Positions 41,280 through 57,514 of a stretch of DNA of 64,000 nt are shown here, piece by piece. Source of the DNA: Candidatus Hebobacterum abditum (GTDB lineage Bacteria > Armatimonadota > Hebobacteria > Hebobacterales > Hebobacteraceae). The stretch covers positions 1 to 64,000 of the forward strand of contig JALGXW010000001.1 in the NCBI GenBank assembly GCA_029821875.1, in the 5' to 3' direction. A program made the position numbers and the translations under genes. Under the pieces are notes generated by a model, which was not told where the DNA came from, searched no databases, and was given only the letters and a program-made list of their open reading frames with translations. Every line of letters starts with the position of its first letter. The stretch's first letter is position 1.

Positions 41280-44200
41280 ATGAAAGCCCGACAAGAGGCT
41301 GCGCTGCTGGCGTTCCTCGCTGTCGCCACGGTGCTGTGGGCGTGCGGAAACCATGCCGCGCGCGCGGCCGAGCCGTTGATCCCGCGGTCCGAGATGCTCG
41401 CGGTGGATGAGATACGGTCCGGGATGAAGGGCGTCGGCAAGAGCGTCTTCGAAGGGACGAGGATAGAGAACTTCGGGGTCACCGTGATCGGCGTACTGCG
41501 GCGCGTGAGCTTCGATGGCGACATCATCCTCGTGCGCATCGACTCCGGCCCGCCCGTCTCCAAGGGCTTCGGAGTGGTATCGGGCATGAGCGGCAGTCCC
41601 GTCTACATCGATGGCAAGATCGTGGGTGCCCTCGCCTATGCCTGGCCCTACGCGAAGATTCCCATGGCCGGGGTGACCCCGATCGCGCAGATGCTCGAGG
41701 CCTACCAACCCGGCTCATCCCCGGTCCGGCGACAGGGCACGCTCAGGGCAGCGGAGCCCTTCCGGATTGACGGGCGCGTCGTGAATCAGGTCGTCGTGGC
41801 TCCGAGTGCTCCCGCTCCGTCCCCTACCAGTGCAGCAATCCCGGCGTTGGTCCCGATCAGCACGCCGGTGCTCGTCAGCGGCCTCAGTCCGGCCCTGATC
41901 GGCGCCCTGGGGGACATGCTGGCGCCATATGGGCTCATGCCTGTCGCGGGTGCGGGCGCGGCTGGTCAGGTCCGAACGCGCATGGTGCCCGGGCAGGCCG
42001 TCGGGGCTCGCCTGGTCGGGGGCGACCTGGACATGACCGCCATCGGCACGGTCACGTACGTCAAGGACGACGTGGTGCTCGCGTTCGGGCACCCGATGGC
42101 AAGCCTTGGCACCACCGACATGCCTCTGGTGGCGGCGTACGTGCACGGGGTCATGCCGTCGAACATGCTCTCCTTCAAGCTTGCCTCCGGAGGCCAGGTG
42201 CTTGGGCAGTTCACCGAAGACCGTGCCTGGTGTGTGGGGGGCCAGCTCGGCGGCGAGCCCGAGCTGGTGGACGCCACCCTCAGGGTGAGGGATCTCGACC
42301 GGGGTGTAGCGCGGGAGTACGACGCGGAGGTCGTCCGAAACCGGTCCCTCACATCCATGTTGCTGGCGGCCGTGCTCGCCGGCGCGATCGACAGCGTAGG
42401 ACTGCCCCCCGAGGGCACGACGCGAGCCAAGTTCTCTCTGGATGTGGAGGGGCTACCGCGTCTGGTGCGCGTCAACACGTACACGGCGGAGGGAGACGGC
42501 GGAATACTCGCCCTTCTGCTGGGCGCGATGGGAGCAGGCGAATCCGCGACATCGGAGCTCTCGCAGATCCTCCAGGTGCTACGGGACAGCGAGTTCGGCG
42601 AGGCGCGACTCGAGCGCCTGGCGGTCGAGGTCGAGGTAAGCAAGACGCGACGACTCGCCCGTCTCGAGGACGTGTACATTCCGACACCGGTCGTACGCGC
42701 CGGCGACGACGTGCCCCTGGTCATCACACTCCGTGCCTCCGATGGAGGTATCTCGCAGATCAAGAGGACGGTGCGCATTCCAGAGACGTGTCCACCCGGT
42801 TGGGTGCGGATCGGGTTGGCGGGGGGGCGCAACGCCGAGCTTCTGCGGGCGCGGCTCGACATATCGGAGCCTAGCCCGGTGTCGCTGGACCAGATGGTCG
42901 CGCAGATGCTCGGCCGCCCCAGCAACGACGACCTGGTGGTCGAGGTGGCACTGCCCACAGTTGGGATCGAGGCACGCGGCCACGCCTTCAGTGACCTCCC
43001 CCCAGCGGCACTCCATCTCCTTCGCTCGGCCACTGCGCGGCGTCTGCGCTTGCTGCGCGACCACGTGGAGCATCGGTGGGAGACGGACTGGGTCCTCTCC
43101 GGGACGACGGTGCTGTCCGTGACCGTGGAGGGGAAGGAGAAGGACAAGGCGGGTCGGCTGCCGTCGCCCGAATACCAGCCGCCTCGGTACGAGCAGATCG
43201 CGGGAGGGTTCGGGAACATCTTCTCGAGCTTGGGGTTCAGTGCTGGGGCGCGCCCGAGACAGGTAGGGGAGGCCGATGACGAGATAGACTTCAACGCGCC
43301 ACCTCCAATGCCCACCTGGGACGAGGTCGAGACCGTGGACGAGCGCGAGCTCACCGTGCCCTCCCTCGGCGAGGCGTCTCGAGAGGCGGCCGCTGCCCGC
43401 AGTGAGGCAGTGGGCCGCATCGCGTCGGTCTGGCGGCTCGCCGACCCGAAGGAACTCCTCGAAGGGGAGGCCCTCGGGACGGCCATCCTCAGCCGCGGCG
43501 GCCTGACGCTTGCCCCCAGGCCCGAGGACCTGGTCGAGGCGGAAGAGCGCTGTCTCTGGCCCGTGGCGGTGGCGGCCGATGGTTCGGTATACGTTGGCTC
43601 CTGGACGGACGGCGCCGTTCGCAGAACCACGCCACACGGGGAAGCGCCGGTCGTGCTCGAAACCTCACACGCAGGTGTGCAGGCCCTGGCCTCAGCCCCC
43701 GGGGGCGCGATCTACGCGGCCGGCGTGCCGGGTGGCACCATCTATCGGCTCGTGCCTGGCGAGGAGCCAGCCGAAGTGTGCCACCTGGGAGTCCAGAACG
43801 TCTGGGCTCTGGCCGTGTCCGACGCCGGCGATCTATGGGCGGCGACGGGGCCGGAAGGTAAGCTCTACCGCATCTCTCCCGACGGCAACTCCTCTGTTGC
43901 CTTCACTGCTGCCGACCGGCACATCACCTGTCTGGCCGCCGGCGCTGACGGCACGCTCTACCTCGGGAGCTCGCCGAAGGGAAAGGTGTACGCTCTGCCA
44001 CCCGACGGGCCGCCAGAGGCCGTCTGTGAGGTTGACGCGGCCGTGCAGAGCCTCGCCGTCGGTGCCGACGGCGATCTCTACATCGGCACCTCTCCTAAGG
44101 CACGCGTCTTGAAGGTCGCCAGGGACGGTTCCTTGCGGGAGATACTGAAGGTCAGGACCAAGCACATCTTCGCTCTGCTGGCGGGGCCCGATGGCATCGT

Positions 44201-45569
44201 CTACGCGGCGCCCGGGCCCCCCGCAAAGGTGATCGCGATCTACCCGGACGAAACATCTGCTCTTCTCTACGACGCCAAGACGGCGTGCATCGCCGCCCTG
44301 GCCGGCGACGGGGCCGGGAACGTCTACCTGACAGCGGCCGATAGCGGCCGACTCCTCCGGCTCAACGGCATAGCGCATCGGGTCGGCACCTATCACTCTG
44401 TTGCGCATGATGCCGGGGCAACCGCCCGCTGGGGAACTGTGCGGTGGCGGGGAGATGTTCCCGAGGGTGCGGCGCTAAGCATCTTCACAAGGACCGGCCA
44501 CACGGCACACCCTGATGAGACGTGGAACGAGTGGGCGCAAGTCCCGTCTCGTCCTGGGGCGCAGGTGGCGAGTCCGCCGGGGCGTTATCTCCAGTGTCGG
44601 CTCGACCTCAGCGGTCAAGGTGCAGCTGTCCCGACGGTGGATGCGGTGGAGTTCGTGTATCTCCCTGCGAATCAGGCCCCCGAAGTGCAGCTCACGGCTC
44701 CAAAGGGCGACGAGATCTGGTCTGGGAGGCAGACGATCCGGTGGTCCGGCCGCGATCGCGACGGCGATGAATTGGAATACGAAGTGTACTGGTCGTCGGA
44801 CCGGGGAGCGACATGGAGCGAGATTGAGTCGGAGACGCAGCCGGCGGAGGAAGGGGAGGAGGCCCCTGAAGTTGAGGGAGAGGCTGAGCCGGAGCCTGAG
44901 ACCGGGCTGCCGGGCGAGGACGAGACTACGAGCCAGACTGACTCCTCGGCGGAGACTGCCGCGGGCGGTGGCGCCGAGGCCCTAGTGGGAGTGCGTCGCA
45001 TGGGCGAGTATGAGGACGTGCCGGACGAGGAAGAGCCGCTTGGGCCCCTTCGGGACGAACTCCCCGACGAGGAGGTGGAGCTCGAGGAGGAGTTGGCGGA
45101 AGCAGAAGAGGAGGCCGTGGCGGCCCGGCCGACCGGCCCCCCCTCCCGCGCGACGTCGCTGAAGTGGGACACGGCAAAGGTCCCAGATGGAATCTACTGG
45201 CTGAAGGTAGTGGCCAGCGACGAGAAGGCGAATCCTGCGGACCCCCGAGAGGGGGAGGCCGTGTCACGTCCCCTCCTGGTAGACAACACGCCTCCCGAGC
45301 TGATCCTTGATCTGCGCAGGAAGGATGACGATCCGCCGCCCGATTCGGTGACAGTGTTCGATCGATCGAGCTACGTCACCAGCGCGGAGTTCAGGGTTGG
45401 CGACGGCGAGTGGCTTGCAGCTGTGGCGGAGGACGGCATCTTCGACGGGCAGTTCGAGGCCGTGGTGTTAGACGTGAAACATCTCCCCGAGGGCAGTCAC
45501 GAGGTCGGCGTGAGGGCGCGCGATGCGGCCGGCAACGTCGCGAGCAAGACGCTCCGCTATCAGCGATAG
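41280..45569 (+). CDS. Giant SpoIVB-type (S55) peptidase fused to propeller and Ig-like domains
   Basis: 1,429 residues. The signal peptide (1-30) is followed by an S55 domain with the 'GMSGSPVYIDGK' nucleophile motif (about residues 102-113) and the family's 'VLAFGHPMASLGTTDMPL' block (about 265-283). An uncharacterised beta-rich stretch reaches ~740. Residues ~750-1035 are a propeller of repeated 'VAADGSVYVGSW', 'GADGTLYLGSS', 'GADGDLYIGTS' blades. The C-terminus has an Ig/fibronectin-like region ('PEVQLTAPKGDEIWSGRQ', about 1131) interrupted by a very acidic low-complexity stretch (about 1185-1280). S55 proteins are autocleaving serine peptidases best known from sporulation (SpoIVB); here no sporulation context exists. 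Likely a cell-surface protein. The stop codon lies inside the terminator stem. Confidence 0.82.
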   Translation: MKARQEAALLAFLAVATVLWACGNHAARAAEPLIPRSEMLAVDEIRSGMKGVGKSVFEGTRIENFGVTVIGVLRRVSFDGDIILVRIDSGPPVSKGFGVVSGMSGSPVYIDGKIVGALAYAWPYAKIPMAGVTPIAQMLEAYQPGSSPVRRQGTLRAAEPFRIDGRVVNQVVVAPSAPAPSPTSAAIPALVPISTPVLVSGLSPALIGALGDMLAPYGLMPVAGAGAAGQVRTRMVPGQAVGARLVGGDLDMTAIGTVTYVKDDVVLAFGHPMASLGTTDMPLVAAYVHGVMPSNMLSFKLASGGQVLGQFTEDRAWCVGGQLGGEPELVDATLRVRDLDRGVAREYDAEVVRNRSLTSMLLAAVLAGAIDSVGLPPEGTTRAKFSLDVEGLPRLVRVNTYTAEGDGGILALLLGAMGAGESATSELSQILQVLRDSEFGEARLERLAVEVEVSKTRRLARLEDVYIPTPVVRAGDDVPLVITLRASDGGISQIKRTVRIPETCPPGWVRIGLAGGRNAELLRARLDISEPSPVSLDQMVAQMLGRPSNDDLVVEVALPTVGIEARGHAFSDLPPAALHLLRSATARRLRLLRDHVEHRWETDWVLSGTTVLSVTVEGKEKDKAGRLPSPEYQPPRYEQIAGGFGNIFSSLGFSAGARPRQVGEADDEIDFNAPPPMPTWDEVETVDERELTVPSLGEASREAAAARSEAVGRIASVWRLADPKELLEGEALGTAILSRGGLTLAPRPEDLVEAEERCLWPVAVAADGSVYVGSWTDGAVRRTTPHGEAPVVLETSHAGVQALASAPGGAIYAAGVPGGTIYRLVPGEEPAEVCHLGVQNVWALAVSDAGDLWAATGPEGKLYRISPDGNSSVAFTAADRHITCLAAGADGTLYLGSSPKGKVYALPPDGPPEAVCEVDAAVQSLAVGADGDLYIGTSPKARVLKVARDGSLREILKVRTKHIFALLAGPDGIVYAAPGPPAKVIAIYPDETSALLYDAKTACIAALAGDGAGNVYLTAADSGRLLRLNGIAHRVGTYHSVAHDAGATARWGTVRWRGDVPEGAALSIFTRTGHTAHPDETWNEWAQVPSRPGAQVASPPGRYLQCRLDLSGQGAAVPTVDAVEFVYLPANQAPEVQLTAPKGDEIWSGRQTIRWSGRDRDGDELEYEVYWSSDRGATWSEIESETQPAEEGEEAPEVEGEAEPEPETGLPGEDETTSQTDSSAETAAGGGAEALVGVRRMGEYEDVPDEEEPLGPLRDELPDEEVELEEELAEAEEEAVAARPTGPPSRATSLKWDTAKVPDGIYWLKVVASDEKANPADPREGEAVSRPLLVDNTPPELILDLRRKDDDPPPDSVTVFDRSSYVTSAEFRVGDGEWLAAVAEDGIFDGQFEAVVLDVKHLPEGSHEVGVRARDAAGNVASKTLRYQR

Positions 45570-45610: not shown

Positions 45611-47230
45611 TCAGCGCATGCTGAGGAACATCTTGAAGTCTTGCGGGTTGCTGGCAACAGACATGGCGATCTGCGGGAGGACCTTCCCCTGCTGCACCAG
45701 CGACTTGAGCGCCTGATCCAGTGTCTGCATTCCGTCGGCCGCGCTGGACTGGAGCACAGACGGCATCTGATGCGTCTTGCCTTCCCGGATCAGGTTGCGA
45801 ATGGCTGAGGTCGCAACCAGGATCTCCTGCGCGCATGTGCGGCCCTTGCCGTCGGCCAGCGGCAGCAGCGTCTGGCAGATGATACCCTCGAGGGTGGTGG
45901 AGAGCTGGACCCTGATCTGCTCCTGCTGGTGAGGCGGGAACACGTCTATGATCCGGTCCAGCGTCTGTGCGGCGCTTGTCGTGTGCAGTGTGGCCAGCAC
46001 CAAGTGCCCGGTCTCGGCCGCGGTGATGGCGGCGCTGATCGTCTCGAGGTCGCGCATCTCGCCGATCAGTATCACGTCGGGGTCCTGCCGGAGCACATGT
46101 CGCAGAGCGACGGAGAACGACTTCGTGTCGCTTCCCACCTCTCGCTGGATTATGATGCTCTTCTCGTTGCGGTGAAGGAACTCGATGGGGTCCTCAACGG
46201 TCACGATGTGCCGGCTCCGCATGACGTTTATCTCACGGATCATCGCGGCCAGGGTGGTGGACTTCCCCGAGCCAGTGGGGCCGGTCACGAGCACGAGTCC
46301 CCGCGGACGTACGGCGAGCTTCTTCAGAACCTCTGGCATGCCCAGGCCGTCCAGCGAGGGCGGGTCGACGGGTACCGCCCGGAAGACGCCGCCAACCGTG
46401 CCTCGCTGGCGATGGACGTTCACCCTGAATCTCGACAGGCCCCGAACGCTGTAGGCGAAGTCGAGTTCCCAGTTCTCCTCGAACTCGCTGATCTGCTCGT
46501 CACTCAGAATGGAGTAGACCAGCTCGTTCATTCGCGTTGGCGTCAGCTTCTCGGTGTTCATGCTGGAAAGCTCGCCGTCGACTCGCAGCATGGGAGCGAC
46601 CCCGACGCTCAGATGGAGGTCTGAGGCCCTGCCCTCGTGCATGACGCGGAGCAGGTCATCGATGTGAAGGATCTCGTCGCTGTCCTGCTCCTTGGCCTCG
46701 GCCTTCTCCTCGGCCACGGGCGCAGATGTCTGGCGCTGCCCGCGGTTGAATTCGGCGTAGAAGCGATCTATCGTACTGCGGACGTCTCTCTCAGTGGCAA
46801 GCAGCGGCTCGATGCGCATGCCGGTGCGAGCCTGGATGAGGTCACACGCCAGGCTGTCGAGCGGGTTCACCATGGCGAGGTGAAGCGTGTTGTCCAGCTG
46901 CGAAACCGGCACAACGCCAAAGCGCCTGGCCATCGACTCCGGGAGCACTTGCATCGCTCCCGCGTTGTACGATACCTTCGAGAGGTCAACGGTCTTCAGG
47001 CCGAGATGACTGCTGAGGACCTGCACGATCTCCTCGGGGCCAACCACGCCCAGCTCGACGAGCACACTGCCAAGCCAGCGGCCCTGCGTCTGCTGGATCG
47101 CCTTCGCGCGCTCCAGCATATGGCGGTCCACCACAGATCCGGAGAGCAAGATCTCCGCCAGCTGATCGCTGTCCGTCTTCAGGACGGCGGCTGCCTTGCC
47201 ACCCTTGCTGCCAGTCTCAACTGCGGACAT
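45611..47230 (-). CDS. PilT-type retraction ATPase fused to an N-terminal MshEN domain
   Basis: 539 residues, ~180 longer than ordinary PilT. Residues ~20-165 form an MshEN/T2SSE_N-like domain ('LAEILLSGSVVDRHMLERA', 'RWLGSVLVELGVVGPEEIV', 'LSSHLGLKTVDLS'), a module that binds c-di-GMP in some assembly ATPases. A charged linker leads to a complete PilT ATPase with 'ASDLHLSVGVAPMLRVDG', Walker A 'GPTGSGKSTTLAAMI' (about residue 316), Asp box 'VTVEDPIEFLH', Walker B 'DVILIGEMRDLET', His box 'GHLVLATLHT' and the PilT-specific 'AIRNLIREGKTHQ'. Last gene of the minor-pilin/HD-GYP operon; a second, normal PilT lies at 54622. Confidence 0.88.
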   Translation of the reverse strand: MSAVETGSKGGKAAAVLKTDSDQLAEILLSGSVVDRHMLERAKAIQQTQGRWLGSVLVELGVVGPEEIVQVLSSHLGLKTVDLSKVSYNAGAMQVLPESMARRFGVVPVSQLDNTLHLAMVNPLDSLACDLIQARTGMRIEPLLATERDVRSTIDRFYAEFNRGQRQTSAPVAEEKAEAKEQDSDEILHIDDLLRVMHEGRASDLHLSVGVAPMLRVDGELSSMNTEKLTPTRMNELVYSILSDEQISEFEENWELDFAYSVRGLSRFRVNVHRQRGTVGGVFRAVPVDPPSLDGLGMPEVLKKLAVRPRGLVLVTGPTGSGKSTTLAAMIREINVMRSRHIVTVEDPIEFLHRNEKSIIIQREVGSDTKSFSVALRHVLRQDPDVILIGEMRDLETISAAITAAETGHLVLATLHTTSAAQTLDRIIDVFPPHQQEQIRVQLSTTLEGIICQTLLPLADGKGRTCAQEILVATSAIRNLIREGKTHQMPSVLQSSAADGMQTLDQALKSLVQQGKVLPQIAMSVASNPQDFKMFLSMR

Positions 47231-47289: not shown

Positions 47290-48717
47290 TCAGCCCCAGC
47301 CTACCGGGAGATGAAGGCCTCTGTCGGCCTCAGCATCCGCGTAGGCGCTTTCCTCGCGGACGGCATCTTTCTGGGACGACCGGTGGGGCCTCCCCTCACC
47401 GACGACGGCGCACAGAGCGTTGACGACGACGGGGTCGTAGAGCTTGGCGTTGTACTGCCGAAGATGCGCCAACACCTCTTGCTCGCTCATCGCCGGCTGG
47501 TAAGGTCGGTCGGTGATCATCGCATCGTAGCAGTCCGCTGCCTGGAGCAGTCGTGCAAGCTGTGGGATCTCCTCTCCTGCCAACCCGTCCGGATAGCCCC
47601 CGCCGTCCCAGGACTCGTGATGATTGCGCACCATTCCGAGGGCATGGCGGCTGGGCCGAAGCGGCCGCAGGATCTGCTCGCCAATGACGCAGTGCTCGCG
47701 GCAGAGGAGGCGCTCCTCGTCTGAGAGGGGCCCGGACTTCATGAGCACGCTGTCGCGTATCCCGATCTTACCCACGTCGTGCAGGGGGCCGAACACCTCG
47801 ATGTCTCGGATCATCCTGTCGGGAAGACCCAGGTACTCGCCCATGTTTACCGCGAGCGCGGCCACGCGTTCGCTGTGCGAGGCCGTGTAGTTGTCACGCG
47901 CGTGCAGGGAATTCACCAGGGAGCGCACGGTCGCGAGATAGCTCCTGCGCAGCTCCTCGTGAAGCTGGGCGCTCTCCAGGGCCTTTGCCGCCATGTTGGC
48001 CAGCGTTGTCAGAATCCGCAGGTCGTCCTTCGTGAAGTGCTGCCGACTGTCGGATCGACGAGCGCCGAGGATGCCCACCAGTCCGTTCGCCAGGCGCAGC
48101 GTTGCGCGCATGGTGGTGCGGCCCCTGTTCCAGGCCGTGATCTTGGACTCGAAGTCCTCCACATCCATCGGCGCCATCGGCAGGAAGTCAGACCAGCCGA
48201 TCTCTGGATCGAGAGAGAAGTCCGGACTGGCCCCACTGACGGTCGGGCACGAGCGCGCGTACACCGGCCTGGCCGTTTCCGGGTCGACGAGAATGAGATA
48301 GGATGCCTCCGCGTTGAGCGCTCCGACCACGGACTCGACGACTGCATGGGTGGCGTGGTCCAGATCGAGGGAGCCGGCCAACTCCGCGCTCGCCGAGCAC
48401 AGCCCGTTGAGTTGCTCCACCCGCTCGTCGAGGCTCTCTACAGCCCCCCTGAGTTGAGTGACCAACGACTTGTTGGCCGCTCTCTGCTCGCGCTCTCGCG
48501 CGCCGAGGTAGAGGATGGTACAGAAGACCAGCAGACCGAGACCTGTGAGCAGGACGACCTCGTCATAGGTCATCCCCGCGACCAAGGGCTGATAGCCGAA
48601 AATCAGCACTACCGAAAGCCAGGTCGCCAGGATCACGATGAAGCTGATCGCGATCCAGACGATCTCCCTTCGCTTCTCGTCCGGGTCCTTCAGGTCCCGA
48701 AAAGGCGGCAGTGGCAC
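47290..48717 (-). CDS. HD-GYP c-di-GMP phosphodiesterase with GAF domain
   Basis: 475 residues: two N-terminal transmembrane helices (about 17-41 and 50-72), a coiled linker, a GAF domain (about 100-250) and an HD-GYP domain with intact metal and substrate motifs ('LHDVGKIGI' about 314, 'HHESWDGGGYPDGL' about 370, 'AADCYDAMITDRPYQ'). HD-GYP proteins hydrolyse c-di-GMP to pGpG or GMP. The start is taken as GTG 48717 because GGAGG precedes it by 5 nt; a TTG at 48729 is possible. Lies between the minor pilin pilX-like gene and the MshEN-PilT gene, implying control of pilus dynamics. Confidence 0.88.
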   Translation of the reverse strand: MPLPPFRDLKDPDEKRREIVWIAISFIVILATWLSVVLIFGYQPLVAGMTYDEVVLLTGLGLLVFCTILYLGAREREQRAANKSLVTQLRGAVESLDERVEQLNGLCSASAELAGSLDLDHATHAVVESVVGALNAEASYLILVDPETARPVYARSCPTVSGASPDFSLDPEIGWSDFLPMAPMDVEDFESKITAWNRGRTTMRATLRLANGLVGILGARRSDSRQHFTKDDLRILTTLANMAAKALESAQLHEELRRSYLATVRSLVNSLHARDNYTASHSERVAALAVNMGEYLGLPDRMIRDIEVFGPLHDVGKIGIRDSVLMKSGPLSDEERLLCREHCVIGEQILRPLRPSRHALGMVRNHHESWDGGGYPDGLAGEEIPQLARLLQAADCYDAMITDRPYQPAMSEQEVLAHLRQYNAKLYDPVVVNALCAVVGEGRPHRSSQKDAVREESAYADAEADRGLHLPVGWG

Positions 48718-48763
48718 CTCGCCCTCCAAGGCTCTGGACTAGACGTCTGCTATGCGCACGCGA

Positions 48764-51278: not shown

Positions 51279-51722
51279 TTACCAGGTGCTGTAGGCCTCG
51301 CCGTTGATCGCTGTCAAAGTCGAACCGCTCTGGACGTGACCTGTGCTGGCAGTGTAGCTCCAAGTCGTAGCACTGTCGGTGAACGGATCCTTCGGCAGGT
51401 TGTTGTCCGCTGTGCGCAGATACGGGCCCTGCCATCCAGTCACGTCGAGGGCAATGCCCGAGCCGCCGGTCGTGCCGGCAGCAGGCTGTGTCATCAGCTG
51501 CGAAGAGGCGGAAGGATAGTCGCCACAGTCGGCCTCGAACTGCTGGATAGCATTCCGAAGCTGGTGCAGGTCGCCGCGAAGCGCGGCCTCCTTAGCCTTA
51601 CGGCCGGCGCCCAGCAACCGCGGAATCACGATCAACGCCAGAATGGCGATGACCACGATCACGATGAGCATCTCGATCAGGGTGAAACCCTTGCTCTTCC
51701 GGTTAACCATTCGACTCATCAT
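51279..51722 (-). CDS. pilA: Major type IV pilin (PilA-like)
   Basis: 147 residues. A short basic leader ends at Gly before 'FTLIEMLIVIVVIAILALIVIP', followed by the N-terminal alpha1 continuation 'AGRKAKEAALRGDLHQLRNAIQQFEADCGDYP' and a small globular domain ('GWQGPYLRTADNNLPKDPF') resembling GspG-type pilins. Expected to be processed by PilD, which is not in the window. GGGAGG lies ~14 nt before the first ATG and there are several in-frame ATGs (51722, 51719, 51710), so the exact start is uncertain. It has its own structured leader after the sigma-factor terminator. Confidence 0.88.
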   Translation of the reverse strand: MMSRMVNRKSKGFTLIEMLIVIVVIAILALIVIPRLLGAGRKAKEAALRGDLHQLRNAIQQFEADCGDYPSASSQLMTQPAAGTTGGSGIALDVTGWQGPYLRTADNNLPKDPFTDSATTWSYTASTGHVQSGSTLTAINGEAYSTW

Positions 51723-51825: not shown

Positions 51826-51875
51826 TCTGAGTTCCGAGGGGGTTATTCCATAGTCACAGGCAGGATTTGAGATGC

Positions 51876-51897
51876 AAAACCCCGCCGCTTGGCGGGG
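51876..51897 (-). terminator. Intrinsic terminator after the sigma-factor gene
   Basis: On the minus strand CCCCGCC-AAGC-GGCGGGG followed by TTTTGC, 40 nt past the stop of the sigma/GGDEF gene. A standard rho-independent terminator that separates the sigma gene from pilA. Confidence 0.8.
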
Positions 51898-51937
51898 CTC
51901 ACGTCGCCCGTTGGCGCCCAGAGGGTGCCACTGATCC

Positions 51938-53275
51938 TCAGCCGACGGCCGGCTGGGGGCGCCCCTTGGTCGGGACAATGCGCTCGGCTCGCACCGAGCA
52001 GTTGCCGCCTTGCTTCTTCGCCTCTGCGAGGGCTTGGTCGGCCGACGAGAAGAGCTCTTCCCTGTTGCGACCATTTGTGGGGAAGACGGAGAAGCCCGCG
52101 CTGACGGTCAACGGGCCCTGATCGCCGGAGAGACGGCTGGCGGCCATTCGGCATATCCGTTCGGTCAGCACGGCCGCTTCCCGGCCCGTGTGAGGGAGAA
52201 GAAGGCCGAACCGCGCGCCGCCCATCCGTGCCACGAGATCGATGCTGCGGCAGTTGGCCCTGAGAAGCCCCGCCAACTCCAGCAACTGCTTCTGGTGGAG
52301 TTCCGCCACGTCGGGCTCGACAACGACCACCGAGAACTGCTGCGGATAGCGGCTTGCCCGCATCACTTCCTGGTCGGCCCGCTCGAGAAGGTAGCCCTCG
52401 GTCGCAACCTTCGTCTCGGGGTCTGAGGGCGCGGGTCGCATCGAGATCGAGTAGGCGCCGACGGGGCCGGGGTGCTCCTCTTCCTCGAGACTGGCTGCGT
52501 ATTCCTGGGCCTCGAAGGCCTTCTTGAGCTTGGCGACGGCCCCCCGCAGAAGATATGAGGCGTAGTTCACCGAGATGCCGAGCTTGCGAGCGATCTCCGT
52601 CTGGTTGAGGTCCAGGTAGTAGAAGTTGTGGACGACCTTGCGCTCGAGGGTCTTGAGCCGCGCCATTGCCTCGCGCAGGAAGATGCGATCCTCGATCGGC
52701 AGATGGGCGGCCTCCGGGTCGTCTGTCCTCAGCTTCTCGGGATCAATGGCCGGACGCTGATCGTCCTCTTCGCCGCGGGCGGCATCGAGAGAGGTGACCT
52801 TGCTGCGCTCGCGCGCCTCGAGCATCCGAGTGACATTCTGGGGAGTCGTCTCGACTCTCTCGGCTATCTCCTCGGGGGAGGGAGGCCGGTTGAGTTCCTG
52901 GGTCAGTGCTTCGCTGGCTTTGGCGATCTTGGTGGTCAGCTCCTGCACCCACGCTGGCTGCTTGATCAGCTTGCCGCGGTCCCTCAGGTAGTGGCGAATC
53001 TGCCCCTCGACCAGGTGGGTGGCGTAGGTGGAGAACTGGACGCCGCGATCGGGATCATAGAGGTCCACGGCGTTGACGAGACCCATCGAGCCTTCCTGGA
53101 TCATATCCTCATGGGACTCGCCGAGGCCGGCGAACTTCCTCGCCGCCGTCTGGACCAGGTAGAGGTGCTTCGCGATCAGCTCGTCACGGAGACCAGCATC
53201 GTGTGTCCGGCGATAGTCGCGGATGAGAGCGTCCACTTCGTCGCGGTCCGGCGCCTTCCTCTTAGCCCTTGCCAT
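51938..53275 (-). CDS. Alternative sigma-70 factor fused to a degenerate GGDEF domain
   Basis: 445 residues in one frame. Residues ~14-110 are sigma region 2 ('EDMIQEGSMGLVNAVDLYD', 'GVQFSTYATHLVEGQIRHYL'), ~112-165 region 3 and ~195-255 region 4 with its HTH ('LNQTEIARKLGISVNYASYL'), closest to the SigB/SigF/FliA-WhiG type (group 3). After a linker (~258-290) comes a GGDEF fold (~292-430): 'LLERADQEVMRASRYPQQFS', 'RSIDLVARMGGARFGLLLP', 'SAGFSVFP', 'SADQALAEAKKQGGN'. The active-site GGDEF is GGARF (352-356), so no cyclase activity is expected. The inhibitory-site RxxD (R343-D346) is intact at the canonical spacing. AAGG precedes the ATG. It lies between pilC and pilA. Inferred role: a c-di-GMP-responsive sigma factor for pilus genes. 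Confidence 0.9.
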   Translation of the reverse strand: MARAKRKAPDRDEVDALIRDYRRTHDAGLRDELIAKHLYLVQTAARKFAGLGESHEDMIQEGSMGLVNAVDLYDPDRGVQFSTYATHLVEGQIRHYLRDRGKLIKQPAWVQELTTKIAKASEALTQELNRPPSPEEIAERVETTPQNVTRMLEARERSKVTSLDAARGEEDDQRPAIDPEKLRTDDPEAAHLPIEDRIFLREAMARLKTLERKVVHNFYYLDLNQTEIARKLGISVNYASYLLRGAVAKLKKAFEAQEYAASLEEEEHPGPVGAYSISMRPAPSDPETKVATEGYLLERADQEVMRASRYPQQFSVVVVEPDVAELHQKQLLELAGLLRANCRSIDLVARMGGARFGLLLPHTGREAAVLTERICRMAASRLSGDQGPLTVSAGFSVFPTNGRNREELFSSADQALAEAKKQGGNCSVRAERIVPTKGRPQPAVG

Positions 53276-53341: not shown

Positions 53342-54553
53342 CTACCCTATCGATCCCACGAGCTCGTAGATGGGCGAGATGACGGACACCGCGATGAACC
53401 CCACGATCAGGCCGAGGCCAACGATCATGATCGGCTCGATCAAGGAGGTGAGGCTCTTGAGCGTGTTGTCCACCTCGTCGTCGTAGAAGTTGGCCACTTT
53501 CACCAGCATCTGATCAAGCCGCCCCGTCTCCTCGCCGATCGCGATCATCTGGGTGACCATCACCGGGAAGATCTTGCTCCCGAACAAGGGCGTGCTGATC
53601 TTCTCGCCTTCCTTGATGGCGTTGCGGGCCCTGGTCACGGTTTCGGAGATGACACGGTTGCCCGCCGTCTCGGACACGATGTCCAGCGCGCGAAGGACTG
53701 GGACGCCACTGGTGATGAGGGTGCCGAACGTCCGGGCGAAGCGCGAGACACCGGTCTTCAGTATTAAGTCCCCGAAGACGGGCACCCGCAGCTTCGCCGC
53801 GTCGATGGCATACTTCCCGCGTTCGGTCCGCGCGAATGCCTTGACGATGATAACTACGCCGACGAGAAGCACGAGTCCTATGTACCAGTAACTCTTCGCG
53901 TAGTCGGAGGAGTTCAGCAATATCTTCGTCGTGAGTGGCAGCTCAAGGCCCATCGTCTCGAAAATGCCTTTGAACTTCGGCAGGACGAAGAACAGAAGGC
54001 CGACGAGCATCAGACATGCGAAGCAGAAGACCACGACTGGGTAGGTCATCGCTGACTTGATCTTGTTTCGCGTCTCCTGCTCCTTCTCGAGGAAGCCCGC
54101 GAGCCGGTCGAGCACCTGGTCGAGGATGCCGCCGGCCTCGGCCGAACGAATCATGTTGACATAGAGAGGCGAGAAGATCCGAGGGTGTTTCTGCAGGGCC
54201 TCCGTGAGGCTCATCCCGCCGGCCACGTCGCGCTTCACTTCCCCGGCGACTTCCTTCATCTTCGGGTTGCGCGCCTGCTTCTGGAGGATGTCCAGACACT
54301 TCACGACGCTCAAGCCAGCGTCGACCATAGTGGCGAACTGCCGGCTGAACACGACCAGGTCGCGGAGCTTCACGCGCTGCATGCTGGCGAACGCGTCCTG
54401 GAAGCTGCTCGTGGTCTTCGCCTGCTTGATGGTCAAGACGTGATAGCTCAGATCGGAGAGCTTGGCCCTCACGAGGTCGAAGCTATCGGCCTCCAGAGTC
54501 CCCGTTACCGTGCGCCCGCTCGGATCCATGGCGCTATATCTATAGGTGGGCAC
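53342..54553 (-). CDS. pilC: Type IV pilus platform protein PilC
   Basis: 403 residues with two T2SSF domains ('FSRQFATMVDAGLSVVKCL', 'RFARTFGTLITSGVPVLRAL') and three transmembrane segments ('VVFCFACLMLVGLLFFVLPKF', a central helix, and 'EPIMIVGLGLIVGFIAVSVI'). Starts 'MPTYRYSAMDPSGRTVTG', typical for PilC. Works with PilB (extension) and PilT (retraction). 68 bp after pilT, 66 bp before the sigma gene. Confidence 0.93.
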   Translation of the reverse strand: MPTYRYSAMDPSGRTVTGTLEADSFDLVRAKLSDLSYHVLTIKQAKTTSSFQDAFASMQRVKLRDLVVFSRQFATMVDAGLSVVKCLDILQKQARNPKMKEVAGEVKRDVAGGMSLTEALQKHPRIFSPLYVNMIRSAEAGGILDQVLDRLAGFLEKEQETRNKIKSAMTYPVVVFCFACLMLVGLLFFVLPKFKGIFETMGLELPLTTKILLNSSDYAKSYWYIGLVLLVGVVIIVKAFARTERGKYAIDAAKLRVPVFGDLILKTGVSRFARTFGTLITSGVPVLRALDIVSETAGNRVISETVTRARNAIKEGEKISTPLFGSKIFPVMVTQMIAIGEETGRLDQMLVKVANFYDDEVDNTLKSLTSLIEPIMIVGLGLIVGFIAVSVISPIYELVGSIG

Positions 54554-54621: not shown

Positions 54622-55725
54622 TTACAGAGTTGCCAGCCAACGCCTGTAGTTGTCCGCGTCGATGGAGCGAGCGGCCGCCTCGTTGTCGGCGACCTCTCCC
54701 TGGCGGACGAGCGTGGCCAAGGCCCGGTCCATCGTCTGCATGCCCTCGTCGCCACCGGTCTCGATCATGGAGTATATCTGGTGTGTCTTTCCCTCCCGAA
54801 TGAGATTGCGGATGCCGGCCGTTATCACGAGCACCTCCACTGACGGGACCCGTCCGACGCCGCTGATCTTGGGCAGCAGTTGCTGCGCGATGACGGCCTC
54901 CAGGGTGCCGGCCAGAAGGACCCGGACTTGCTCCTGGTGGTGCGGGGGGAAGACGTCGACTATCCGGTCCACGCTCTGCGGAGCGTTGCGCGTGTGCAGC
55001 GTTCCCAGGACGAGATGACCGGTCTCGGCGATCTTCAGCGCGCTATCGATCGTCTCCAGATCGCGCATCTCGCCGATGAGGACCACATCGGGGTCCTCCC
55101 GGAGCGCAGACCGCAAGGCGGCCGCCCAATCGTAGGTGTCGCTTCCCAGCTCTCGCTGGTTGACCATCGACCGCTGGTGGCGGTGCAAGTACTCGATCGG
55201 GTCCTCGATGGTGATGACATGGCAGTCGCGAGTCTGGTTTATGTGATCGACCACCGCGGCCAGAGTCGTAGACTTGCCGCTTCCCGTGGGGCCGGTCACC
55301 AGGATCAGCCCGCTCGTCCGCCCGGCCAGCTTCCTCACAACCGGCGGCAGCCCGAGCTCATCGAAGGTGGGGATGCGCCGCGGGATGAGCCGAAAGGCCG
55401 CGCCGACCGACCCTCGCTGCATATACACGTTCACGCGGAAGCGCCCAACCTTGGCGATTCCGTGCGAGAAGTCGAGCTCGTGTCTTCGCTCGAACTCCTC
55501 GATCTGATGGTCCGTCAGAATGCTGTAGATCAGACGCTGGCACTCCGGCGGCTCCACCCGGTCGAAGTTCATCGGTCTCAGGTTGCCATCTATTCTCATC
55601 GTGGGAGGGAGGTTGGCCGTCAGGTGCACGTCCGAAGCCTGTCGTTCCGCCGCCATCGCCAGAAGCTCATCGAGAGAGTAGTTCTCGATGCTCGGCTTTC
55701 CCCTTGTGCTAGCCAGTGTAGACAA
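54622..55725 (-). CDS. pilT: Type IV pilus retraction ATPase PilT
   Basis: 367 residues, standard length. Motifs: 'ASDVHLTANLPPTMRIDG', arginine-rich 'RFRVNVYMQRG', Walker A 'GPTGSGKSTTLAAVV' (about residue 145), Asp box 'ITIEDPIEYLH', Walker B 'DVVLIGEMRDLET', His box 'GHLVLGTLHT' and the PilT signature 'AGIRNLIREGKTHQ' near the C-terminus. Drives pilus retraction and twitching. Its start overlaps the pilB stop by 17 bp. Confidence 0.94.
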   Translation of the reverse strand: MSTLASTRGKPSIENYSLDELLAMAAERQASDVHLTANLPPTMRIDGNLRPMNFDRVEPPECQRLIYSILTDHQIEEFERRHELDFSHGIAKVGRFRVNVYMQRGSVGAAFRLIPRRIPTFDELGLPPVVRKLAGRTSGLILVTGPTGSGKSTTLAAVVDHINQTRDCHVITIEDPIEYLHRHQRSMVNQRELGSDTYDWAAALRSALREDPDVVLIGEMRDLETIDSALKIAETGHLVLGTLHTRNAPQSVDRIVDVFPPHHQEQVRVLLAGTLEAVIAQQLLPKISGVGRVPSVEVLVITAGIRNLIREGKTHQIYSMIETGGDEGMQTMDRALATLVRQGEVADNEAAARSIDADNYRRWLATL

Positions 55726-57424
55726 CTCTCAGCGCCTCCTCCATCGTTGTTATCCCCTCCAGGATCTTCTGCATCGCGTCCTGCCGGAGGGTCACCATCC
55801 CCGCCTCGAGGCCCGCCTGTCGCAGTTCGTGCGTGGGCGCCTTGCGAAGGATCAGCTCCCGCAAGTGGTCGGTTATCATCATCAACTCGAAGACCCCGAT
55901 TCGGCCCTTGTATCCGGTCTGGCGGCAGCGCTCGCAGCCGCGACCGCGATAGAACGTCACCGACTCCAGGTCCATAGCCAGATTCAGCCGGCGGAAGGCC
56001 TCCACCGGTGGCGTGTAGGCTTCTTTGCAGTCCGGACAGATCACTCGGACGAGACGCTGGGCAAGGACGCCGACTACCGACGATGCCACCAGGAAAGGCT
56101 CGATGCCCATCTCGATCATTCTGGCGATGGCCGTGGGCGCATCGTTCGTGTGGAGAGTGCTGAACACGAGGTGTCCAGTCAGTGCGGCCTCTGTCGCGAT
56201 CAGCGCCGTCTCCGCGTCTCGGATCTCCCCAACGAGGATGACGTCCGGGTCCTGACGGAGGAATGTCCGGAGTGCGCTCGCGAAGGTCACTCCTGCCCGT
56301 GTGTTGACCTGAGTCTGGGTGAGGCCCGGCAGCTGGTACTCGACGGGATCCTCAATCGTCAGGATGTTCTTCTCGGGGCTGTTGATCTGGTTCAGGACGG
56401 AGTATAGCGTTGTAGACTTGCCCGAGCCCGTCGGGCCCGTGACCGTTATGATGCCGTAACTGCGGTTGATGAGGCCGTCGAACTCCTCCATCACGGTGTT
56501 GGGAATGCCAAGCCGATTGAGCCCGACCTGGACGCCGGCCTTGTCCAGGACACGCATGACCACCTTCTCCCCGTTCACACCTGGATTGGTGGAGACCCGG
56601 AAGTCGAACTCCCTGCCTCCGACGCGCAGGGAGATGCGCCCGTCCTGCGGGGCCCGCCTCTCGGCGATGTCCAAGTCGGCCATGACCTTGATGCGCGAGA
56701 CCAGCGGAGCCTGGGCCTTCTTCGGGACCGTCATCGTGTCGTGCAAGATGCCATCGAGCCGGTAGCGGACCCTGACTCGGTTTGCCTCGGGCTGGATGTG
56801 AATGTCGCTCGCCTTGTCTCGGAGGGCTTGATCTATGATCAGGTTCGCGAGCCGCACCACGGGAGCGTCTTCCATGAGCTCCCGCAGCTCGTCGATCCCC
56901 ATGTCCTCCTCGCCCTCGGCTGACTCCACCTCGATATCGGTGGGGTCGGCGCCGAACTCCTGGCTCATGTCTTGCAGGGCCCCGGCTAGCTCTTCGCGCG
57001 CCGACATCGACTGCCCCAGCGCGGCACCGATGTCCTCGGCCGAGGCGATGACCGACTCGATGTCCATGCCTGCCACCAGACGCATCTGGTCGATCGCGTA
57101 GACGTCCAATGGGTTCACCATGGCGACGACCAGCCGCGGCCCGTTCCTGTCCACGGGCACGGCCTTCCAGCGCTGGAGCAGGTGGTGGGGGATGAGCTTC
57201 AGGAGGTCCTTGTCTATCTGCTTATCGGTCAGATCGACGAAGGGGATGCCCCACTGGCGCCCGAGTATCCTGACCTTCTCCTTCTCGGAGATCAGGCCCA
57301 TGTTCACCAGGATCTGGGCGAGCGGCTCGCGGGTCTCCTTCTGGACGTCCAGTGCCTGGCGCAACTGGTCGTCCGAGATGTCGGTCACTTCGCGCACGAT
57401 GTCGGCGACTGTCCTCGTCTCCAT
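55709..57424 (-). CDS. pilB: Type IV pilus extension ATPase PilB
   Basis: 571 residues. The N-terminal MshEN-like domain (about 5-150) includes 'PLAQILVNMGLISEKEKV' and 'LGRQWGIPFVDLTDKQ'. The ATPase has Walker A 'GPTGSGKSTTLYSVL' (about 330), 'LTIEDPVEYQLPG', Walker B 'DVILVGEIRDAETA', 'TGHLVFSTLHTNDAP' and the zinc tetracysteine ('CPDCKE' about 465, 'CERC' about 498). The ATG at 57424 (METRTVAD) has GAGGCGAG upstream and is preferred over a longer frame to 57508 that would run into the terminator of pilQ. Polymerises pilin; MshEN domains of PilB homologues can bind c-di-GMP. Confidence 0.93.
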   Translation of the reverse strand: METRTVADIVREVTDISDDQLRQALDVQKETREPLAQILVNMGLISEKEKVRILGRQWGIPFVDLTDKQIDKDLLKLIPHHLLQRWKAVPVDRNGPRLVVAMVNPLDVYAIDQMRLVAGMDIESVIASAEDIGAALGQSMSAREELAGALQDMSQEFGADPTDIEVESAEGEEDMGIDELRELMEDAPVVRLANLIIDQALRDKASDIHIQPEANRVRVRYRLDGILHDTMTVPKKAQAPLVSRIKVMADLDIAERRAPQDGRISLRVGGREFDFRVSTNPGVNGEKVVMRVLDKAGVQVGLNRLGIPNTVMEEFDGLINRSYGIITVTGPTGSGKSTTLYSVLNQINSPEKNILTIEDPVEYQLPGLTQTQVNTRAGVTFASALRTFLRQDPDVILVGEIRDAETALIATEAALTGHLVFSTLHTNDAPTAIARMIEMGIEPFLVASSVVGVLAQRLVRVICPDCKEAYTPPVEAFRRLNLAMDLESVTFYRGRGCERCRQTGYKGRIGVFELMMITDHLRELILRKAPTHELRQAGLEAGMVTLRQDAMQKILEGITTMEEALRVVYTG

Positions 57425-57479
57425 AGCCAAACTCGCCTCGTTAGGCTCAACCTCACTGTGTTCGAGCGGCGCTCTGGGC

Positions 57480-57514
57480 GAAGAAAGGGGGCCTGCCCGG
57501 CTGGGCAAGCCCCC
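57480..57514 (-). terminator. Terminator between pilQ and pilB
   Basis: GGGGGC/GCCCCC and TGCCC/GGGCA stacked stems (one mismatch) with a 4-nt loop at 57487-57514. The minus strand continues TTTCTT. A second short stem, CCCGGC/GCCGGG (57587-57601), lies directly after the pilQ stop. Confidence 0.65.

Follow-up and report, generated by a model that had tools for sequence, protein, structure and literature searches.

PopA and SgmT each combine a GGDEF fold with a dead A-site and an intact I-site, and the dead GGDEF domain of SgmT binds c-di-GMP through the I-site (PMC3509222); for output, these proteins have either a response regulator or a histidine kinase, and their reported effect is on localization. 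In the I-site of PleD, R359, D362, and R390 of one GGDEF domain together with R313 of its neighbor bind a c-di-GMP dimer (PMC7288161). Control of a group-3 sigma factor by a c-di-GMP dimer is known from Streptomyces, where the dimer can lock sigma-WhiG away through RsiG, a separate anti-sigma protein (PMC13232838). ECF sigma factors with attached sensory parts have also been described (PMC8999054, PMC9023288). These factors, including OrbS with its on-board iron sensor, have no anti-sigma factor (PMC8999054) and consist of regions 2 and 4 with metal, SnoaL-like, or TPR parts. The review of this group does not mention GGDEF domains or second messengers (PMC8999054).

We analyzed a 64,000-nucleotide stretch of the genome of Candidatus Hebobacterum abditum (hereafter, the window), in which one gene joins a sigma factor to a degenerate GGDEF domain. 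Like PopA and SgmT, the encoded protein has a GGDEF fold, a dead A-site, and an intact I-site, from which a receptor role is inferred; in contrast to them, its output is the sigma factor itself. As in the RsiG–WhiG system, a c-di-GMP dimer is proposed to control a group-3 sigma factor, but in the fusion the receptor is part of the same polypeptide, with a fold unrelated to that of RsiG. Unlike the sensor-bearing ECF factors, the fusion is a group-3 factor with region 3, and its attached part is a second-messenger receptor domain. We found no description of such a sigma–GGDEF fusion in the openly licensed literature; as far as that literature goes, the new feature is the phylum-wide combination of a dead GGDEF receptor with a region-3 sigma factor, each half being known separately. 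We consider it likely that the protein is a group-3 sigma factor whose dead-cyclase GGDEF domain has been kept as an on-board c-di-GMP receptor and gates surface-motility genes, both ligand binding and promoter use being inferred.

The fusion gene and its domains

The gene (51938..53275, minus strand) encodes 445 aa and was identified from the ORF, Pfam, and homologs. The sequence-only reading had placed an uninterrupted sigma–GGDEF frame at these coordinates, which were correct; the strand is minus, and the same interval on the plus strand contains stops. Pfam searches bore out the proposed joining of sigma-70 regions 2–4 to a GGDEF domain in a single frame: Sigma70_r2 (residues 33–101), r3 (112–173), and r4 (203–252) were all above cut-off, and a GGDEF domain was detected at residues 330–425 (E 3.5e-18). 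The SigB/SigF/SigG-like sigma part (residues 33–252) thus occupies 52520..53179 and the degenerate GGDEF domain (residues 285–430) 51986..52423, both on the minus strand. The sigma half was closest to SigB/SigF/SigG, yet fell below the curated cut-off of the SigBFG family TIGR02980 (176.7 vs 234.35 bits), which the SigB of the same genome clears with 284 bits. Region 3 is present in the fusion, so the ECF criterion (regions 2 and 4 only) is not met, and its sequence is best read as that of a group-3 sigma-70 factor nearest to SigB/SigF/SigG.

An AlphaFold2 model resting on six sequences had a mean pLDDT of 60.7, with values of about 63–86 across most of the GGDEF half. Foldseek searches with this half returned GGDEF structures, several of them bound to c-di-GMP, including 3ign (TM 0.81, by target length), 6tts (0.75–0.77), and PleD with c-di-GMP, and searches with the N-terminal half returned sigma factors. 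As modeled, the C-terminal region is a GGDEF fold, the ligand and the sigma–GGDEF contact lying outside the model; an unrelated fold at this position, which would have refuted the sequence-only reading, was not what Foldseek indicated.

Conservation of the I-site and loss of the catalytic site

The alignment comprised 78 members in which the GGDEF region is complete (effective n about 66); 49 ordinary GGDEF domains, taken from the same genomes and from others, served as controls. Residues were numbered against a sequence that we take to be that of PleD, whose numbering was checked against known catalytic positions; an independent HMMER match to PleD entries puts R343 at index 358–359 of the chain, if the stretch is ungapped. 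In the window protein, the degenerate A-site reads GGARF (residues 352–356; 52208..52222, minus), and the primary I-site RxxD, R343-S-I-D346 (PleD R359/D362; 52238..52249, minus), precedes it by five residues, as had been noted from the sequence and with the RxxD spacing of PleD. R373 (52157..52159, minus; 98–99% conserved) corresponds to the third primary I-site residue, PleD R390, and R306 (52358..52360, minus; 100% conserved) to PleD R313, the secondary I-site arginine supplied by the neighboring subunit (PMC7288161).

These four residues were the top conserved positions of the GGDEF half (R306 1.00, R373 0.98, D346 0.98, and R343 0.97; n=78), whereas in the controls catalytic and structural positions ranked highest, and conservation at the positions of PleD R313, R390, D362, and R359 was 0.51, 0.62, 0.84, and 0.87, respectively. 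The complete quartet was found in 74 of the 78 fusions, and in the window protein, compared with 16 of the 49 controls. Conversely, GG[DE]EF occurred in none of the 78 fusions but in 43 of the 49 controls. RxxD was retained in 75/78 fusions; its absence from homologs, another observation that would have counted against a catalytically dead, I-site-retaining domain, was therefore not made, and loss of the A-site in 78/78 bears out the other part of that claim. RxxD alone was rejected as proof of a receptor, being present in 77% (weighted) of the control domains; since active cyclases often have the motif, the weight of the argument lies solely on the complete quartet and on the inversion of ranks, which were used in its place. 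Members with a damaged I-site or without a GGDEF domain were few (L069, L072, L081, L167, and L082).

Whether the domain might still be catalytic through a non-canonical A-site, or sense GTP at the old A-site, has to be considered, since a variant motif can be active, as is AGDEF in VCA0965 (PMC3974145), and a degenerate GGDEF domain in CC3396 senses GTP (PMC7288161). Across the fusion family, however, the equivalents of PleD D327, N335, D344, G369, E370, and E371 are lost or scattered, which leaves no metal or GTP contacts and makes this explanation very improbable. The protein fails the criteria for an active diguanylate cyclase, with no GG(D/E)EF and the metal and substrate residues gone, and meets on sequence those for a PopA/SgmT-type receptor (GGDEF fold, degenerate A-site, and intact I-site), without binding data. 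From the pattern of conservation, again without binding data, we infer that selection has discarded catalysis and retained the ligand-binding site.

The domain could alternatively serve only as a dimerization or protein-contact module, for example for another cyclase or phosphodiesterase, with no c-di-GMP binding left. Degenerate GGDEF domains can work by protein contact; the GGDEF domain of Streptomyces RmdB binds to sigma-WhiG and excludes RsiG (PMC13232838), and the conserved E303 and P399 of the fusion GGDEF half are not I-site residues. It would be surprising, however, for a mere contact module to have exactly the four ligand-contacting residues at the top of its conservation ranking and every catalytic residue lost, and we regard this explanation as unlikely compared with a receptor. 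R309 is an arginine in about 80% of fusion members and may, by spacing only, be the counterpart of R163, the secondary arginine of DgcR (PMC8041772).

Distribution and origin of the fusion

A match at E<=1e-60 was obtained in 206 of 291 Armatimonadota genomes, and among the matches listed, the best ~150 cover both halves. The nearest named relatives, in a contig search that reaches close relatives only, were Candidatus Hebobacteria and other Armatimonadota MAGs. Reading of 81 loci from 34 family-level groups revealed the fusion in about 33 groups, and the GGDEF domain was lost in one group (f23). In a tree built from the sigma parts of the fusions and 12 stand-alone sigma factors, all fusions grouped together with one loss, with an SH-aLRT of 98 for the branch holding them; the stand-alone factors likewise make up one side of a branch. 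The fusion is old and real, and the sequences show a single origin for it in Armatimonadota. Chance or a frame artifact was ruled out by the conservation across many genomes, and the assembly artifact that the sequence-only reading had allowed for can be set aside, since intact copies occur in many independent genomes and form one clade.

Outside Armatimonadota, the fusion was absent from 16 genomes of other groups, which contained only separate sigma or GGDEF proteins, and from 296 genomes of the Rhodococcus phylum, in which the best matches were sigma-only; no further phyla were sampled. Outside the fusion clade, the closest relatives are stand-alone sigma factors of Rhodococcus-phylum genomes (L291 and L295–L297). 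In one of these loci (L291), the gene upstream of the sigma factor encodes a CxxCH-rich, multihaem-cytochrome–like protein.

Genomic neighborhood

The fusion gene was found, as the sequence-only reading had it, between pilC and pilA, with an HD-GYP protein and MshEN ATPases close by; MshEN is a family of c-di-GMP receptor domains. Downstream lie a pilA-like gene for a major pilin or pseudopilin (N_methyl, T2SSG; 51279..51722, minus), the likely target, followed by minor pilins, a GAF-HD-GYP protein that is a likely c-di-GMP phosphodiesterase (47290..48729, minus), and a second T2SSE ATPase with an MshEN domain (45611..47230, minus). On the other side, pilC (T2SSF; 53342..54553, minus), a conserved upstream neighbor, is followed by pilT, the gene for a PilB-type ATPase with an MshEN domain (55709..57508, minus), and pilQPONM. 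Among the 81 loci, pilC directly preceded the sigma gene in the same orientation in 46; this adjacency was missing in 35, three of them at contig edges. The gene does not always lie beside pilA, a point that had been left as a question.

No RsbV/W or SpoIIAB/AA genes were present among the annotated neighbors of the fusion. The RsiG motif, which we presume to be E-x3-S-x2-R-x3-Q-x3-D, had no match in the six frames of the window, and a riboswitch scan of the window returned none, just a tRNA. On the plus strand, 41280–45569 encodes a 1429-aa protein in which an SpoIVB-type (S55) peptidase-like region and beta-propeller–like repeats were recognized by eye.

A promoter-like element before pilA and other motility genes

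The gap between the sigma gene and pilA contains a conserved promoter-like element, ATCTCA-N15-TATGGAATAA (51843..51873, minus), upstream of pilA; the window copy reads ATCTCAAATCCTGCCTGTGACTATGGAATAA at 51873–51843 and is common to class members. Just upstream of it, a possible terminator hairpin with a short T run (51877..51900, minus) may mark the end of the sigma transcript; this evidence is weak, with a fold z-score of -0.55, and the scan did not call it. A sigma-70 housekeeping promoter was sought before pilA and not found.

The pattern TCTCA-N14-16-TRTGGAATA yielded 31 sites in 14 genomes of the class, compared with 0 for the reversed pattern. All 31 spacings were 14 or 15, and the unspecified flanking bases were biased (A before the pattern in 25/31 sites and A after it in 23/31), giving an extended consensus of CATCTCA-N14/15-TRTGGAATAA. 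Within 1.09 Mb around fusion genes there were five exact sites, all of them 68–242 bp past the sigma stop. The genes downstream of the element included pilA in eight genomes, flgB in three, fliO, and fliM, as well as genes for GAF-GGDEF cyclases in two genomes. The pilus regulon envisaged by the sequence-only reading is supported by synteny and by this element; the regulon is likely to be wider than the pilus.

In three relatives, the element precedes the gene for a further sigma-70 factor (L262:327-1436 minus, L253:83-1237 plus, and L245:336-1427 minus), which suggests a sigma cascade. This factor has regions 2 and 4, and the L262 copy adds about 150 aa of unassigned C-terminal sequence. In the genome of the window, a copy of the element lies just upstream of a c-di-GMP-I-GGC riboswitch (RF03167, 69.5 bits; L190 1336–1424, minus), and a second c-di-GMP-I-GGC riboswitch directly follows a looser match in a relative (L226). 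The L190 riboswitch precedes a gene for a 400-aa predicted secreted protein.

Elsewhere in the phylum, the exact element was near background, being clear only in the class of the window and in one other genus, which implies either drift of the binding site or a different regulon outside the class. That genus belongs to a distant family of another class, in which the fusion adjoins pilC and, in three genomes (L278–L280), the element stands ~14 bp before the start codon of pilB-MshEN. At this distance, transcription of pilB would yield a nearly leaderless transcript.

Sigma factors that may read the element

The genome of the window contains three region-3 sigma factors: RpoD, SigB, and the fusion. 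SigB, whose classic switch is RsbV/RsbW, is encoded at about 121 kb on the contig that includes the window (L286) and is preceded by STAS and HATPase genes (RsbV/RsbW). The sigma part of the fusion is of the same type as SigB; the fusion has no RsbV/W genes beside it, whereas this ordinary RsbV-RsbW-SigB set lies elsewhere in the genome.

The fusion could be a c-di-GMP receptor and yet control other genes, the element and the pilus and flagellar regulon belonging to SigB (RsbV/W) or RpoD. SigB, as a group-3 factor of the same genome, could read the element, and the fusion persists outside the class while the exact element is rare there. However, class genomes have the element in the gap between the fusion gene, which it directly follows, and pilA, and in the distant family whose fusion adjoins pilC it stands before pilB; moreover, in a 99% complete genome (G009) the fusion is accompanied by a second group-3 match, yet no exact element is present. 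Assignment to another sigma factor remains possible on this evidence, though doubtful. The position and function of the element favor the fusion as its reader, and by inference from these two features we consider this assignment quite likely. Direct control of pili and of further motility genes by the fusion is probable, promoter use being inferred.

Proposed mechanism

According to the reading that we prefer, a (c-di-GMP)2 dimer would be held by R343, D346, and R373 of one subunit and R306 of another and would cross-link two GGDEF domains, as in PleD. Such cross-linking is inferred to alter the access of the sigma part to RNA polymerase, and the on-board receptor would replace a separate anti-sigma factor. 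The genome of the window encodes likely active cyclases (a GGDEF protein and an HD-GYP-GAF-AGDEF protein) as well as phosphodiesterases, which makes the presence of c-di-GMP in the cell plausible. Through CATCTCA-N14/15-TRTGGAATAA, the fusion would most likely drive pilA; in relatives, flagellar and c-di-GMP genes would join its targets.

For the direction of the switch we can offer only a guess, leaning toward c-di-GMP-bound fusion being sequestered and off. The inhibitory I-site and RsiG–WhiG are the analogies for this, and two relatives have the element in front of cyclase genes; if bound means off, these cyclase genes would form a negative feedback. With somewhat less assurance than for the receptor itself, we favor a phylum-wide, one-protein c-di-GMP switch on transcription initiation that governs type IV pili, flagella, and the c-di-GMP system without an anti-sigma factor. 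For a phylum in which genetic work is scarce, it supplies a defined regulon hypothesis for surface motility together with a promoter element. The fusion would also offer a natural, modular ligand-gated sigma factor, as well as a clean example of an enzyme domain whose catalytic activity has been lost and whose feedback site alone remains.

Among other genes preceded by the element are those for related ~485-aa proteins without a Pfam match in two class members (L261:1574-3028 plus and L251:1580-3028 plus). A MerR-like ORF lies 91 bp after the element (L263); such an ORF follows the element in G012 and resembles a small MerR-like regulator encoded ahead of flgB in G008.
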